A stretch of DNA of 64,000 nt from the NCBI RefSeq assembly GCF_010994755.1, contig NZ_WHSB02000008.1, forward strand, positions 62,001 to 126,000, given 5' to 3'. Shown here in pieces: positions 18,642 to 23,880 of the stretch; within the stretch, counting starts at the first letter, position 1, and each line of letters begins with the position of its first letter. The translations under genes and the position numbers were made by a program. The stretch comes from Shinella lacus. GTDB taxonomy: Bacteria; Pseudomonadota; Alphaproteobacteria; Rhizobiales; Rhizobiaceae. The notes beneath the pieces were generated by a model. That model saw nothing but the letters and a program-made list of their open reading frames with translations, ran no database searches and was not told where the DNA came from.

Positions 18642-20033
18642 TCACCGCCAGGCGCGCGCCCTTTCGATGGCTTTGGCGAAACGGGCATGGTCGGCGGCCC
18701 CGACCGTGCCGTCCGGCTTGAAGGTTTTGGCGGCGGTGCGCGCGCCGCGAACATCGACGCCGGCGAGTTCCGCAAGGCCGAGCGCCGTCAGCTCGTGCAT
18801 CGGCGCCACCGTGATCGCGCGGTTGCTGGCCGACGCCAGGAACTGCGCGAAGTAAGCGCTCTGCGACAGGCCGCCGTCGATGGAGATGCTGGGACCGAGT
18901 TCGCCGACCTTGGCGGCCGCCTCGATCAGCCCGACGGTCAGCATGGCGATGCCCTCCAGCACCGCGCGCACCAGGTCGCGCCGGTCCGTCGCATGGTCCA
19001 TGCCGATGAAGAGGGGGGCGGCCTGGCGGTCCCAATAGGGTGCCGCAAGGCCGGACAGCGCCGGCACGAAGACGATGCCGCGGCTGAGCGCGGAGGGGCC
19101 TTCGAAGCTGCCGAGCTCCTCCATGGCCGAAAACAGGCCGATATCGCGCGCCCATTCCAGCGCCGAGCCCGCATCATAGACGCCGCCCTCGATGGCGAAG
19201 GTCGGGCCTTCGCCCGTCAAGTGCCAGGCGATGGTGGGCAGGAGGTCGGATTCCGCCGGTCGCCGGTCGCCGGCGATCGCCAGCAGGAAGGCACCCGTGC
19301 CGAAGGTGATCTTGCAATCGCCGGGCTTGCGGCAATCATGCCCGAAGAGGGCGGCCTGCTGGTCGACGATCGAGACTTTTACCGGCGTGCCGCCGATCGC
19401 GCCGAAGCCGGCATCGACCGCGGCGATCTCCGGCAGGCACTGGCGCGGCACGCCGTGCAGCGCGCACATTTCCTCGCTCCAGGTGCCGGTTGCCAGATCG
19501 ATCAGGCCGGTGCGCGAGGCGGTGGCGAGATCGGTGCGGAAGGTGCCGCACAGCCGGTCGAGGAAGAAGGCGTCCGTGGTGCCGAGCCGCAGGCGGCCGG
19601 CCTCAAGGGCGGCGGCGACGGCGGGCAGGGTCTTTACCAGCCAGGACAGCTTGCTGGCGGAAAAATAGGGATCGAGCGGCAGGCCGCTCACCGCCTTCGA
19701 GCGCGCTTCCGCCTCCGGGGGCAGGTCGGCGAGAGCCTCTGCCGTGCGCGAATCCTGCCAGACGATGACGGGCGACAGCGGTTTTCCGGTCTCCGCATCC
19801 CAGGCAAGGCAGCTTTCGCCCTGGTTGGAAATGGCGATGGCATCGACGGGGCCGGCCCCCTCCAGCACCGCCTCGATATTGCGCAGCAGCTCTTCCGGAT
19901 CGTGCTCCACCCAGCCGGGGGCGGGGTGGTGCTGCGCATGGCGGCGCGTGCCGGCGACGCGCCAGGCGCCGCCATCCTCGATGACGAGGCAACGGGTGGA
20001 TGTCGTGCCCTGGTCTATGGCGGCTACCCGCAT
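18642..20033 (-). CDS. FGGY-family carbohydrate kinase (glycerol-kinase-like)
   Basis: The 463-residue protein has the FGGY N-lobe start AAIDQGTTSTRCLV (4-17), the glycerol-kinase-like WVEHDPEELL and VIVWQDSRT segments, and the C-lobe ATP site (ITFGTGAFLL; ISIDGGLSQSAYFAQFLA). It is shorter than glycerol kinases (about 500), mostly at the C-terminus. Its ATG directly follows the TAG of the FAD gene, with no spacer. It phosphorylates a polyol or related alcohol. With the GlpA-like and second flavoprotein it resembles a glycerol/glycerol-3-phosphate module, but no facilitator gene is present. The substrate could be another polyol. Confidence 0.9.
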   Translation of the reverse strand: MRVAAIDQGTTSTRCLVIEDGGAWRVAGTRRHAQHHPAPGWVEHDPEELLRNIEAVLEGAGPVDAIAISNQGESCLAWDAETGKPLSPVIVWQDSRTAEALADLPPEAEARSKAVSGLPLDPYFSASKLSWLVKTLPAVAAALEAGRLRLGTTDAFFLDRLCGTFRTDLATASRTGLIDLATGTWSEEMCALHGVPRQCLPEIAAVDAGFGAIGGTPVKVSIVDQQAALFGHDCRKPGDCKITFGTGAFLLAIAGDRRPAESDLLPTIAWHLTGEGPTFAIEGGVYDAGSALEWARDIGLFSAMEELGSFEGPSALSRGIVFVPALSGLAAPYWDRQAAPLFIGMDHATDRRDLVRAVLEGIAMLTVGLIEAAAKVGELGPSISIDGGLSQSAYFAQFLASASNRAITVAPMHELTALGLAELAGVDVRGARTAAKTFKPDGTVGAADHARFAKAIERARAWR

Positions 20034-21254
20034 CTAGTCTTCCTCCCTGAAACGAAAATGCACGTTCTGCGCCTGTGGCGCATCCGGCGGAATGGGCACG
20101 AGGATGCGCCGCTCGGGCATCCAGAGACCGCGCGCCTGCCAGACTTCGCGCCCGTCGAGTTCCAGCGACAACCGGCCGCGCACGCGCCGCAGCACGCGGA
20201 GCTGGAACTGCCGGAAGGCCGGGGCGGACGCGGTGCGGCGCAGGATATTCGGCACGACGAGTTTTATCGGCGCATCGAAGGTGACGGGCACCGGGACGCC
20301 GTCCTCGGGTTCGCGTCCAAAATCCTCGGCGATGGCCCTGCCGATGGCGCGGCCCTCGCGAAACGCCCAGCCGCCGGTCTCCACCGCGCGCAGGACATTG
20401 CCGGCGGCGAACATGCGCGGATCGAGCGAGCGGCCCTGCTGGTCGACCGCAGGCCCGGCGCTGCCCGGGTCGACGCCCAGGGCCGATTGCAGGAACAGCG
20501 CGGATTCCGGGGTGAACTGGCCGGTGAGCAGAACGCCGTCGCAGTCCAGCGTTTTGAGCTTTCCGCCACGGCGGATGGTGACGGCCTCGACGCGGGTTCG
20601 GCCGAGAATGTCGACGATCTCGGCGCCGCGGTGAAAGGGGATGCCCATCAGGCTCGGGAACCAGGCGAGCGGCGCGCGGGCGAGCGCATGGGCGCGCGGC
20701 TCGATCATCGCGACGGGCCTTGCGCCATGGCTGAGGCAGGTCAGCACCGCCGAGAGCGAGACGAGCTCGGAGCCGACGATCAGCGGGCGGCGGAAGGGCA
20801 GGAGGCCGTGGAAGGCGAGATAGGATTGCAGCGTGCCCGTGGTCACGACGCCGATCGGCCGGTCGCCGGAGAGCAGGCGGGCGGAGCGCGGCTTTTCGCG
20901 CGCACCCGTCGTGACGAGGATGCGCTCGGCCGTCAGCTTTTCCACACCGGGGCCGGTCGTGACGAGCACCGAGCCGTCCTCGCAAAGCTCCACCACCGAA
21001 TGCCCGGTGCGGATATCGACGCCGGCCTTTTCCGCCTCGCGCGTCAGCTTGCGGCCATAGGCGGCGCCGAAATAGACGCGGCCGAATTCCAGCATGCCGA
21101 AGGGCGAATGCGCGCAATGCCGCGTCGCCCCGCCCAGCGCCGGCTCGCGATCGAGCAGGATGACCCGCCGGCCCTGCCGCCGAAGCTCGATCGCCGCCGC
21201 CACCCCGGAGGGTCCGCCGCCAACGACCAGCACATCCGCATCGAGAGCGCTCAT
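20034..21254 (-). CDS. NAD(P)/FAD-dependent oxidoreductase (second flavoprotein of the GlpA module)
   Basis: This 406-residue protein of the pyridine-nucleotide-disulphide oxidoreductase fold has the FAD Rossmann motif VVGGGPSGVAAA (10-21). It has a second nucleotide segment (LIVGSELVSLSAVL, about 157-170) and the C-terminal FAD motif MFAAGNVLRAVETGGWAFREGR (about 283-304). Proteins of this kind sit beside GlpA-like dehydrogenases carrying a BFD iron-sulphur domain and are thought to pass electrons onward. The start ATG overlaps the TGA of a 65-codon frame that runs through a palindromic repeat (21251-21448). In the ancestral arrangement it probably overlapped the GlpA stop directly. Confidence 0.9.
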   Translation of the reverse strand: MSALDADVLVVGGGPSGVAAAIELRRQGRRVILLDREPALGGATRHCAHSPFGMLEFGRVYFGAAYGRKLTREAEKAGVDIRTGHSVVELCEDGSVLVTTGPGVEKLTAERILVTTGAREKPRSARLLSGDRPIGVVTTGTLQSYLAFHGLLPFRRPLIVGSELVSLSAVLTCLSHGARPVAMIEPRAHALARAPLAWFPSLMGIPFHRGAEIVDILGRTRVEAVTIRRGGKLKTLDCDGVLLTGQFTPESALFLQSALGVDPGSAGPAVDQQGRSLDPRMFAAGNVLRAVETGGWAFREGRAIGRAIAEDFGREPEDGVPVPVTFDAPIKLVVPNILRRTASAPAFRQFQLRVLRRVRGRLSLELDGREVWQARGLWMPERRILVPIPPDAPQAQNVHFRFREED

Positions 21255-21272
21255 CGGCCAGCCTCCGTGTCG
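21248..21272. repeat. Imperfect direct repeat, copy A
   Basis: These 25 bases match 21442-21466 at 22 positions (both begin CGCTCATCG and end CCTCCGTGTCG). Copy A covers the start of the second flavoprotein gene. The two copies flank the palindromic element at 21298-21416 and look like a duplication made at its insertion, since diverged. Confidence 0.7.
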
Positions 21273-21448
21273 TGGGGTCTTTGCGACGGGTGCGTCACCC
21301 CCTCATCCGCCTGCCGGCACCTTCTCCCCGTGGGGGAGAAGGGGAAGATAGCAAACGTCTCGTTTCTCCCTTCTCCCCCGCGGGGAGAAGGTGGCCCGAA
21401 GGGTCGGATGAGGGGGATGTCGCAAGCATGGACAGCAAACACGCTCAT
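21251..21448 (-). CDS. 65-codon frame created by the repeat insertion
   Basis: This frame starts with an ATG that overlaps the GlpA-like stop as ATGA. It runs through the palindromic repeat and ends with a TGA that overlaps the ATG of the next flavoprotein as ATGA. The 65-residue product has no known domain and is mostly translated repeat (PSPRGGEGR, FSPTGRRCRQADEG). Its value is probably to carry ribosomes across the insertion, so that coupling between the two flavoprotein genes survives. Whether the peptide accumulates is unknown. Confidence 0.45.
   Translation of the reverse strand: MSVFAVHACDIPLIRPFGPPSPRGGEGRNETFAIFPFSPTGRRCRQADEGVTHPSQRPHDTEAGR
21298..21416. repeat. Composite palindromic repeat element (REP/BIME-like)
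   Basis: The outer arms CCCCCTCATCCG (21298-21309) and CGGATGAGGGGG (21405-21416) are perfectly complementary. Inside are two further palindromes, CCTTCTCCCC...GGGGAGAAGG at 21320-21342 and at 21369-21391. This structure matches a class of intergenic palindromic repeats common in Rhizobiales genomes. No transposase is encoded. It lies between two genes of one operon rather than at an operon end. Confidence 0.85.
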
Positions 21449-21466
21449 CGCCCGCCCTCCGTGTCG
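21442..21466. repeat. Imperfect direct repeat, copy B
   Basis: Partner of 21248-21272. This copy covers the last codons and stop of the GlpA-like gene. The peptide ends are also similar, DTEGGR here and DTEAGR at the end of the 65-codon frame, showing that the duplicated segment came from the gene end. Confidence 0.7.
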
Positions 21467-22848
21467 ATGGCGAGCGGCGTGGCGAGCTTGCCCTTGGTCA
21501 TCTCGGCGAGCCGCGCATTGCAGTAAAACCCCTGGCAGCGCCCCATGCCGGCGCGGGTGCGGCGGCGCAGGCCGCCGAAATCGCCGGGAGGCACGGGGCT
21601 CGAAAAGGTCGCTTCGATCTCGCGGCGCGTCACCAGTTCGCAGTGACAGACGATCTCGCCGTGGTCCGGCCGCTGCCAGTCGCGCTCGCGGCATTCGGCG
21701 AGGTTGGGTGTGGCGATGTCGGGCACTTGCGCCGGCGGCGTGAAGGGTTCGGCGAAATCCGCATGGAGCTTCAGCGCATGCTGGGCGAGGCCGAGGGCGG
21801 AGCTGAGGCCCGTCGAGCGGATGCCGCCGAGCGTGATGGCGCGCTGGTCCGGCCGCACGAAGACGCGGTAGCCCTTCTCTTCGCTCGCGGGCCTGAGCCC
21901 GGCATAAAGCGCGGTGACGGGCATGCCCGCCAGCGCCGGCACGATCTCCGCCGCACGGGCAACGAGGGCTTCGAGCGTCTGCGTCTCGACGGTGGCGCGC
22001 ACCCGGTCCTCCTGCTCCTCCGCCGTCGGGCCGACGAGCACGTTGCCGAAGGCCGTGGGACAGACGACGATGCCCTTGGTCACTTCCGTGGGCACGGGCA
22101 GGATGATGCGCGGCACATGGCGCGCGGCCGCCTTGTCGAGCACGACGAACTGGCCCTTGCGCGGCTTGATGCGAAATCCGGGGGTGAAGCCGAGGCGGGT
22201 ATCGACGACATCGCCATAAAGCCCCGCCGTGTTGACCACCGCATCGGCGAGGATCTCGCCCGCCGTCGTCTCCAGCCGCCAGATGCCGTCGAACGTGCCC
22301 TTGATCAGTTCCGCCCCGCGCAGGAACCGTGCGCCGAGCGCCACCGCCTGGGTGAGATAGGCGAGCGGCGCCGACCACGGATCGATGATATGTTCGCCCG
22401 GCACTTCGAGTGCCGCGACGAGCCGGTCGGAGAGCGACGGCATGGCCGCGCGGGCCTCGCCGCCGGAGCGCAGCACGACATCCGTCGTGCCGTTGTCGCG
22501 CGCCTGCCGTTCGATGCCGGCGAGTTTTTCGGCTTCCTGTGCGTTCCAGGCGCAGACATAGGCGCCGGTCGTCACCAAAGCGAGGTTCAGGCTGTCCCTG
22601 ATCTCCAGATATTCCTGCCGGCCGGCGCGCACCAGCTCCAGTTCGAGGCTGCCGGGCGGCGCGTCGAAGCCGGTATGCAGGATGGCGCTGTTGGCCTTGG
22701 AGGCGCCCGACAAGATATCGGCGCCCTTCTCGATCAGGATCACCTTTGCGCCCGCCAGCGAAAACCGCCGGGCGACCGCACAGCCGACGACGCCCGCGCC
22801 GATGATGGCGACATCGTAGGTCTCCCCGGTCTGCGGCTGGCGTGGCAC
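21445..22848 (-). CDS. GlpA-like FAD-dependent dehydrogenase with BFD [2Fe-2S] domain
   Basis: The GTG at 22848 follows a GGGAGAGAA stretch and gives 467 residues. An ATG three bases upstream is in another frame, and longer extensions are unconserved. The DAO/GlpA fold begins with GAGVVGCAVAR (about 17-27), and IEKGADILSGASKANSAILHTGFD is typical of glycerol-3-phosphate dehydrogenase and L-2-hydroxyglutarate oxidase relatives. The C-terminus is a BFD-like [2Fe-2S] domain with Cys401, Cys403, Cys438 and Cys443. It should oxidise the phosphorylated product of the FGGY kinase and pass electrons through the partner flavoprotein. It is the first gene of the leftward operon, facing a DeoR regulator across paired dyads. 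Confidence 0.9.
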   Translation of the reverse strand: MPRQPQTGETYDVAIIGAGVVGCAVARRFSLAGAKVILIEKGADILSGASKANSAILHTGFDAPPGSLELELVRAGRQEYLEIRDSLNLALVTTGAYVCAWNAQEAEKLAGIERQARDNGTTDVVLRSGGEARAAMPSLSDRLVAALEVPGEHIIDPWSAPLAYLTQAVALGARFLRGAELIKGTFDGIWRLETTAGEILADAVVNTAGLYGDVVDTRLGFTPGFRIKPRKGQFVVLDKAAARHVPRIILPVPTEVTKGIVVCPTAFGNVLVGPTAEEQEDRVRATVETQTLEALVARAAEIVPALAGMPVTALYAGLRPASEEKGYRVFVRPDQRAITLGGIRSTGLSSALGLAQHALKLHADFAEPFTPPAQVPDIATPNLAECRERDWQRPDHGEIVCHCELVTRREIEATFSSPVPPGDFGGLRRRTRAGMGRCQGFYCNARLAEMTKGKLATPLAIDTEGGR

Positions 22849-22862
22849 GGCATTCTCTCCCG

Positions 22863-22883
22863 TTCGGTCACATTGTGACTGAA
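22863..22883. promoter_or_regulatory. Operator 1 for the DeoR regulator (candidate)
   Basis: TTCGGTCA (22863-22870) and TGACTGAA (22876-22883) form an inverted repeat with a 5-base centre, 14 bases before the GlpA-like start. The same motif recurs at 22898-22906 as a half site and as a second dyad at 23014-23035. Binding here would block the leftward operon. Confidence 0.6.
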
Positions 22884-22996
22884 CGGTATAAAATAAATGA
22901 CCGAATGTAAAGCGCGATGGTAGAGCGAGAAGGCCACGAGACGCTCGCAAGGGATGCGAAAGCGCGATTTCTGGGGCAAAGCAAAATACGTCAAAA

Positions 22997-23035
22997 TGAC
23001 TGAACGGTCGGAATTCAGTCATTGACTTGACCGAA
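22997..23035. promoter_or_regulatory. Operator 2 cluster for the DeoR regulator (candidate)
   Basis: TGACTGAACGGT (22997-23008) repeats the 12 bases found at 22876-22887 exactly. TTCAGTCA (23014-23021) and TGACCGAA (23028-23035) then form a dyad with the same orientation as operator 1 and a 6-base centre. About 150 bases separate the two dyads, which is suitable for looping. Confidence 0.6.
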
Positions 23036-23109
23036 CCGCAGGATACAACGGGAGAAATTCTGCAAATCGCGCGAATCCTTACGCGAATCTGTGCTTGCAA
23101 GGGGGCGCC

Positions 23110-23880
23110 GTGAGGCCGGCCGATCGCCACGAAAAAATTGTGAAGCTCGTGCACAAGGCGGGCGAAGTGAGCGTCGACGACCTCGCCCAGACGCTCGGCG
23201 CCTCGCGCGAGACGATCCGCCGCGACCTCGCCAATCTGGACGCCATGGGCCGCCTGAAGAAGTTCCACGGCGGTGCGCGCGTGCGCTCCAACACCGCGGT
23301 GGAGCCGGCGGTGGAGGGGCCGTTTGCGCTGCGCATGGCGGAAAACCTGCCGGCCAAGCGCCGCATCGCGCATGCTGCGGCCAGCCTGCTTGCGCCCGGC
23401 GATGCCGTCTTCATCGACACCGGCACGACGACGCTGATCCTCGCCGAAGCGCTGGTCGACCTGCCGGCGCTTGTCGTCGTCACCAATTCCTGGCGCATCG
23501 CCGCCACGCTGTCAGCCAATCCGGACCACAAGGTTTTCCTGATCGGCGGCGCCTATGGCGCGGATGCGGGCGAATCGCTCGGCCAGTTCGCGGTGGAGCA
23601 GATCCGCAAATTCCGCGCCCGCCACGCCTTCCTCACCGTCGGCGCGGTGGACGAACATGCCGTGATGGATTTCGACGCCGAGGTGACCGAGGTGGCGCAG
23701 ACCATGATCGAGCGCGTCGACAGCGTCACGGTGCTGGCGGACGCCTCGAAATTCGGCAAGCGCGGCATTTTCGAAGTCGCCCCCTGGGGCAATATCGACC
23801 GCCTCGTCACAGACGAGGCCCCGCCCGCCGCGATTGCGGAAGCGCTGAAGGGCGCGGGCACCGAAATTGTCGTCGCCTAG
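23110..23880 (+). CDS. DeoR family transcriptional regulator (GlpR-like)
   Basis: From the GTG at 23110 (AAGGGGG just upstream) the product is 256 residues. A TTG at 23095 is possible but has no better signal. It has the DeoR N-terminal helix-turn-helix (VSVDDLAQTLGASRETIRRDLANLD, about 20-44, followed by KKFHGGA). The sugar-phosphate-sensing DeoR C-terminal domain follows (about 75-235; DAVFIDTGTTTLILAEAL, VVTNSWRIA, ADASKFGKRG). It faces the GlpA-like operon across 260 bases with repeated TGAC(C/T)GAA sites and is the obvious local repressor. It is convergent with zwf. Confidence 0.92.
   Translation: MRPADRHEKIVKLVHKAGEVSVDDLAQTLGASRETIRRDLANLDAMGRLKKFHGGARVRSNTAVEPAVEGPFALRMAENLPAKRRIAHAAASLLAPGDAVFIDTGTTTLILAEALVDLPALVVVTNSWRIAATLSANPDHKVFLIGGAYGADAGESLGQFAVEQIRKFRARHAFLTVGAVDEHAVMDFDAEVTEVAQTMIERVDSVTVLADASKFGKRGIFEVAPWGNIDRLVTDEAPPAAIAEALKGAGTEIVVA

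Follow-up and report, generated by a model that had tools for sequence, protein, structure and literature searches.

A palindromic repeat between duplicated stop-start junctions

The window considered here, a stretch of 64,000 nucleotides (nt) of Shinella lacus DNA (contig NZ_WHSB02000008.1, positions 62,001 to 126,000), contains two flavoprotein genes, here called gene A and gene B, that are separated by a composite palindromic repeat and joined by a short open reading frame (ORF), the linker, which runs through that repeat from the stop codon of the first gene to the start codon of the second. The features of the region are as follows, in window coordinates.

21445-22850, minus strand: gene A, GlpA-like flavin adenine dinucleotide (FAD) oxidoreductase with a C-terminal BFD [2Fe-2S] domain (Pfam DAO and Fer2_BFD); 3' end exact, start approximate
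21442-21466, minus strand: upstream junction copy, 25 nt, with the end and stop of gene A, a Shine-Dalgarno (SD)-like GGAGG (21460-21456) and the linker ATG (21448); resembles the single junction of relatives
21417-21441, no strand: spacer, 25 nt, between upstream junction copy and palindromic repeat
21298-21416, no strand: composite palindromic repeat, 119 bp, RIME-like
21273-21297, no strand: spacer, 25 nt, between palindromic repeat and downstream junction copy
21248-21272, minus strand: downstream junction copy, 25 nt, with GGAGG (21266-21262), the linker stop and the gene B ATG (21254)
21251-21448, minus strand: linker (relay) reading frame, 65 codons, ATGA to ATGA
20034-21254, minus strand: gene B, FAD/nicotinamide adenine dinucleotide-linked oxidoreductase (Pfam Pyr_redox_2), ATG at 21254
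18642-20033, minus strand: FGGY-type carbohydrate kinase, the next gene of the operon, directly abutting gene B

Gene A is held in an open frame that spans 21445-23373 of the minus strand. The 119-bp repeat comprises nested inverted arms at 21318-21343/21368-21393 (26 nt, 96%) and at 21298-21309/21405-21416 (12 nt, 100%). The segments 21248-21272 and 21442-21466, spaced by 194 and identical at 22 of 25 positions, form a direct repeat that takes in both the gene A stop and the gene B start; among 60 stretches of 270 nt drawn at random from the window, the best 25-mer pair matched at no more than 19 of 25 positions. The linker opens in the ATGA at the gene A stop and closes in the ATGA at the gene B start, with gene A ending in ...IDTEGGR* and the linker in ...HDTEAGR*, and the remaining two minus-strand frames through the insert each contain stops. 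An original prediction, made from the sequence alone, had described the 119-base palindrome between the GlpA-like and second flavoprotein genes, the 25-base direct repeat and the 65-codon frame with its DTEGGR and DTEAGR ends, all of which were recovered here. When the region 20900-21800 was searched against Rfam, 26 matches were obtained, these being weak, mostly microRNA-like hairpins, all under gathering scores; a consensus search of the same region for a promoter or intrinsic terminator revealed none.

The ancestral junction in relatives

The corresponding junction was considered in 32 relatives carrying both genes, with six distant loci being left out and the start nearest the stop being used. 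An intergenic insert was found in none of the 32, the distance between genes A and B being 10 nt or less in all. Stop and start share ATGA in 21 relatives (20 identified by script and one, L173, read from the sequence), including all 17 in which gene B identity is at least 63%. Ten others overlap otherwise (-8 to +2, stop to start), while in L175 the genes lie 10 nt apart. In the nearest relative, G154, gene A ends in ...IETEGGR, with a single ATGAGCG. Because relatives hold a single, unfilled junction, the insert represents the derived state, and the second copy of the junction arose by duplication. As such, the ATGA-coupled ancestral pair proposed in the original prediction is borne out: a RIME-like repeat, together with two short spacers, entered an ATGA overlap in this Shinella lineage, and approximately 25 nt of the junction were duplicated. 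As a result of this duplication, gene A retained its end and stop codon, and for gene B the ribosome site and start codon remained in place. Between the two junction copies, 3 of 25 sites differ, and the divergence from G154 at fourfold sites is 25-30% in genes A and B (with the gene A value for L030 left out), in line with an insertion that would be later than the split from G154.

The same design at other junctions

The linking frame, fixed before testing as the +1 frame of the second gene, i.e., the frame of the ancestral ATGA stop, connects the stop of the first gene with the start of the second in 5 of 22 copies of the repeat that lie between co-directional genes. These are the window copy and the copies at hisS-hisZ (L002), at ccmA-ccmB (L063 and L081) and between addB and the gene before it (L080). 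As the five were found by scanning the 22 copies for linking frames, they are chosen cases, and the other 17 co-directional copies, two of which are open in the linking frame, offer no fair control. Fair evidence is instead provided by 49 long inserts at orthologous junctions, fetched regardless of frame.

In Shinella, 12 of 15 ccmA-ccmB junctions are filled by inserts of 124-205 nt, each of the 12 containing a linker from the ccmA stop to the ATGA of ccmB, while the three empty junctions are -4 overlaps. Six different insert lengths are seen at this junction and all are 1 mod 3, indicating that insertions and deletions keep phase. At hisS-hisZ, 10 of 19 Shinella junctions are filled and all 10 linkers end 10 nt inside hisZ; the nine empty junctions present gaps of 1-6 nt. 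Examination of 20 Shinella addB junctions revealed the repeat in two (long, 181 nt) and a gap of 37 nt in another two, with the +1 frame linking the genes in all four; 15 of the other junctions are -4 overlaps and one is a 2-nt gap.

A family search spanned 109 genera. For ccmA-ccmB, 292 genomes matched, of which 70 junctions, namely the best 30 and 40 chosen ones rather than a random sample, were taken. Among the 69 that were readable (four already in the genus set), 39 present gaps of 20 nt or less (27 being -4 overlaps) and 30 are filled; 29 of the latter are linked, with the last (L274) holding a DUF4345 gene. For hisS-hisZ, the best 30 of 112 matches, again not a random sample, yielded 27 readable junctions (two already in the genus set), nine of them empty. 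The 18 filled junctions comprise 14 linked inserts, three containing a glyoxalase-like gene (one of the three was tested and the other two are alike by eye) and one that is open and without a start (L319).

Palindromic repeats of several kinds fill the ccmA-ccmB and hisS-hisZ gaps in 16 genera. At one and the same junction, different species hold different palindromic repeats, as reflected in the linker peptides PPHPPAGTFSPWGRRG (L063) and PLCPAGHLPLKGGD...ISPLEGEMPGRAEGG (L176). In 40 long ccm and his inserts, with the family hisS-hisZ inserts not included, the palindrome hallmark (loose patterns) was seen in 38, and inverted arms of at least 15 nt were seen in 28, as compared to 0 of 40 shuffles.

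The linking frame is open in every long insert of the test set

The test set included the window and excluded the four gene-like inserts and duplicate genomes, with inserts of at least 100 nt being considered long. The +1 frame was stop-free in 54 of 54 long inserts, frame 0 in 15 and frame +2 in eight, i.e., 23 of 108 for the other frames (Fisher p 6e-25; binomial against 0.40, p 3e-22; both ignore kinship). When the five chosen cases were removed, all 49 remaining long inserts were open in the +1 frame. The same was true of all 12 short inserts, in which the other frames were open in eight and five cases, as expected at such length. In 65 of 66 inserts the linking frame has a start codon close to the first stop, and in 65 of 66 its end falls between +1 and +13 relative to the second start. 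When one case per genus and junction was counted, 22 of 22 were open, namely 11 at ccm and 11 at his (L319 included), representing 16 genera (approximately 2e-9). High G+C content, which the original prediction had named as a trivial reason for all phases to be open, fails to account for these figures.

A proposed relay cistron and its alternatives

The palindromic repeat is read here as having been tolerated as a relay cistron that preserves translation across a formerly overlapping gene pair, a reading that includes reinitiation and to which a probability of about 0.72 is assigned. Ribosomes ending gene A would restart at the overlapping AUG of the linker, translate through and melt the palindrome, terminate at the second AUGA and begin again on gene B. 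Junction inserts would accordingly survive mainly if open in the linking frame, with the linker peptide being irrelevant. Given that the window insert folds very strongly (z -6.9), a need for translation through it is plausible. More broadly, it is reasonably probable that several unrelated palindromic repeat families in Rhizobiaceae have become recurrent translated relay cistrons, kept only if linked to both genes, that part of what is considered "intergenic repeat" in operons (ccmAB, hisSZ, addB) is translated linker, and that all this arose separately from mycobacterial MIRU.

Several points weigh against the relay. At the window alone, the right phase and an open frame would be encountered together by chance in approximately 13% of cases (1/3 x 0.40). 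The GGAGG of gene B might suffice for initiation, and the relay would be a reading of sequence rather than of expression. Codon-position G+C in the linker (0.62, 0.61, 0.70) lacks the pattern of a gene (for genes A and B: 0.70-0.74, 0.51, 0.86), consistent with a meaningless peptide but no proof of translation. The insert-bearing species are related, so that 54 inserts are not 54 independent events. The hisZ insert of L319, although open, lacks a start codon close to the end of hisS, and its frame closes only at 70 nt into hisZ. Finally, the empty Shinella hisS-hisZ junctions are gaps and not overlaps. The proposal in the original prediction that the frame was kept so that ribosomes reach gene B is hence supported by the comparison across junctions, whereas the window by itself is insufficient, and the reinitiation step remains a putative one.

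It is possible, although unlikely, that translation of the linker serves instead to keep Rho and RNases off naked folded mRNA, with gene B starting on its own GGAGG. The retention of this site by gene B and the strong folding of the insert are in agreement with such a role, as is the presence of an SD-like 4-mer before the second gene in 41 of 49 filled ccm and his junctions scored and in 36 of 42 empty ccm rows (two genomes being entered twice). Cover of this sort would, however, accept any open frame, including one fused to the second gene or ending deeper inside it, whereas the open frame is +1 in every long insert and ends just past the second start in all but one of the 66 inserts. Both explanations need the linker to be translated; only the relay explains why the linker almost always ends at the second start.

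That no selection for frame occurred at all, with the repeats being open in most frames and the junction duplication alone having rescued both genes, is highly improbable. When 89 copies were considered in both orientations, open frames through the bare element numbered 322 of 534, falling to 214 of 534 when 26 nt of natural flanks were included, and chance could account for the window case by itself, as noted above; the 54 of 54 long inserts, where 40% would be expected (even if uncorrected for kinship), and the 22 of 22 per-genus count argue against this. Although the linker is an open frame with an SD-like site, the idea that it encodes a functional small protein is most improbable, since the peptides vary widely across species and repeat kinds at one junction, the window linker matches nothing in Pfam or NCBIfam and two other linkers tried gave no Pfam match.

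The repeat family and its mode of insertion

The 119-bp repeat was matched in 17 of 21 Shinella genomes (E 1e-12 or better), the genome of the window itself contributing 14 matches at that threshold, a number that also counts hits of the palindrome on the reverse strand. In addition, 304 plasmid records match the repeat, mostly from Rhizobium, Sinorhizobium, Azospirillum and Shinella. RIMEs (Rhizobium intergenic mosaic elements) are palindromic composite repeats that are intergenic and present in many copies in Rhizobiaceae. The window repeat, itself palindromic, composite, intergenic and found in many copies in Rhizobiaceae, is RIME-like and may be a RIME.

To consider flanking duplications, 93 copies were taken, 90 of which have both ends recognisable. 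A flanking direct repeat was detected in only one of the 90, the window copy (score 16); the flank scores of the remaining copies (4-9) lie within the spread given by 711 mismatched flank pairs (4-12). A long target duplication as the insertion mode of the family, as in MITE-type elements, was therefore rejected, and the junction duplication is particular to the insertion event at the window. The target duplication invoked in the original prediction thus stands for the window and not as the usual mode of the family. In a coupled junction, an insert would persist only where gene A retains its stop and gene B its ribosome site, as a duplication grants, and such a filter would explain why the window shows a duplication that is atypical of its family. 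At four other copies, the orthologous intergenic sites are too diverged to place the joints of short duplications.

With up to three mismatches allowed, 24 nt of either spacer found no second occurrence in the 21 genus genomes, and a donor copy that brought the spacers along was thus rejected among these genomes. When traces of a once longer junction duplication with decayed outer parts were looked for, the left spacer matched the gene B start of one relative at 13 of 25 positions (shuffle p 0.005, best of four heads), and the right spacer gave nothing. The junction matches the repeat's own end at 13 of 16 positions; eight 16-mers of this kind exist in the window, including the ends of the repeat itself. 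The two spacers share a 7-nt inverted repeat, TTGCGAC/GTCGCAA (21281-21287 and 21419-21425), outside the palindrome, perhaps by chance.

Placement was considered for 30 copies with called neighbours, two more having been dropped as their ends were unrecognised. Of these, 22 lie between co-directional genes, seven between convergent genes and one between divergent genes, with none of the 30 falling inside a called gene; the gene calls were based on codon scoring and some starts are wrong (that of gene B in the window being off by 21 nt). At L006, a repeat from the window's own genome lies between convergent genes where four relatives (L163-L166) present a terminator-like inverted repeat, as judged by eye. 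At this site, the repeat may have replaced a terminator.

Relation to known systems

MIRUs (mycobacterial interspersed repetitive units) live mainly at stop-start junctions, whereas the family of the window repeat does not, as its low share of linked co-directional copies reflects. In a 2025 review, mycobacterial MIRUs are described as mobile repeats with start codons as insertion sites and with an internal ORF that is thereby coupled at -4 nt (PMC12548453). The window insertion resembles these, so described, in lying at a stop-start site and in carrying an ORF coupled to its neighbour (ATGA...ATGA, at an ancestral overlap). Unlike MIRU, the rhizobial case involves several kinds of palindromic repeats that otherwise lie in ordinary intergenic space, and its stop-start overlaps sit in the flanking spacers, outside the repeat. 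The finding is a multi-family rhizobial counterpart of the MIRU relay ORFs, with MIRU being the closest known case.

RIME is likewise an intergenic repeat of rhizobia, and the title of a 1995 paper reportedly places it within a two-component system; the covered parts of the RIME literature contain no mention of a relay frame. Rickettsia palindromic elements and enterobacterial repeat-unit ORF fusions are repeats kept open in frame (PMC2229807). These are, however, fused within proteins, whereas the rhizobial linker is a separate cistron. As such, the likeness to palindromic elements inside coding sequence drawn in the original prediction is less apt than that to MIRU, given that no placed copy lies inside a gene. 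It is also described that a short ORF with a stop overlapping or near the next start delivers ribosomes (PMC4833913; PMC6728339). In contrast to such leader-ORF reinitiation and ATGA termination-reinitiation, the short ORF of the rhizobial case is an inserted mobile repeat between two genes. In the open-licence literature, which omits most subscription papers, no report of the rhizobial relay was found in the parts covered (including PMC2229807, PMC3733652, PMC12306157, PMC2573895, PMC2245857, PMC6728339, PMC5082802 and PMC4833913).

A relay would explain how repeats spread into dense, overlapping operons without cutting off downstream genes. The two junctions, in 16 genera, represent a natural experiment on the strength of selection for stop-start coupling, such that the purpose of gene overlap, an old question, becomes directly testable at ccmAB and hisSZ. 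A further prediction is that a class of cistrons, translated but indifferent to their peptide, goes unannotated.

Further observations at ccmA-ccmB and hisS-hisZ

Linkers at the two unrelated junctions often start alike, with TGATGGGCGTG or TGATGG (L181, L183, L185, L187, L206, L208 and L217), which could reflect start-site selection or a shared cassette end. In Shinella hisZ, a stop ending at +10 is found in all 10 genomes with a filled junction (L002, L129, L133, L205-L208, L210, L217 and L218) and in none of the nine with an empty one (L209, L211-L216, L219 and L220), being reached twice via codon CTA followed by G. Outside Shinella, 4 of 8 empty hisS-hisZ junctions also have the +10 stop, so that the covariation is weaker there and amounts to no proof.

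Whole genes occupy the same slot at hisS-hisZ (glyoxalase-like; L304, L315 and L316) and at ccmA-ccmB (DUF4345; L274), with their ends lying 4 nt (L274, L315 and L316) or 6 nt (L304) ahead of the following start, indicating that real genes can take this position. Lastly, different kinds of palindromic repeats are found at hisS-hisZ within one genus (L129, L133, L205, L206 and L217), which suggests repeated entry or the exchange of repeats inside an existing linker.
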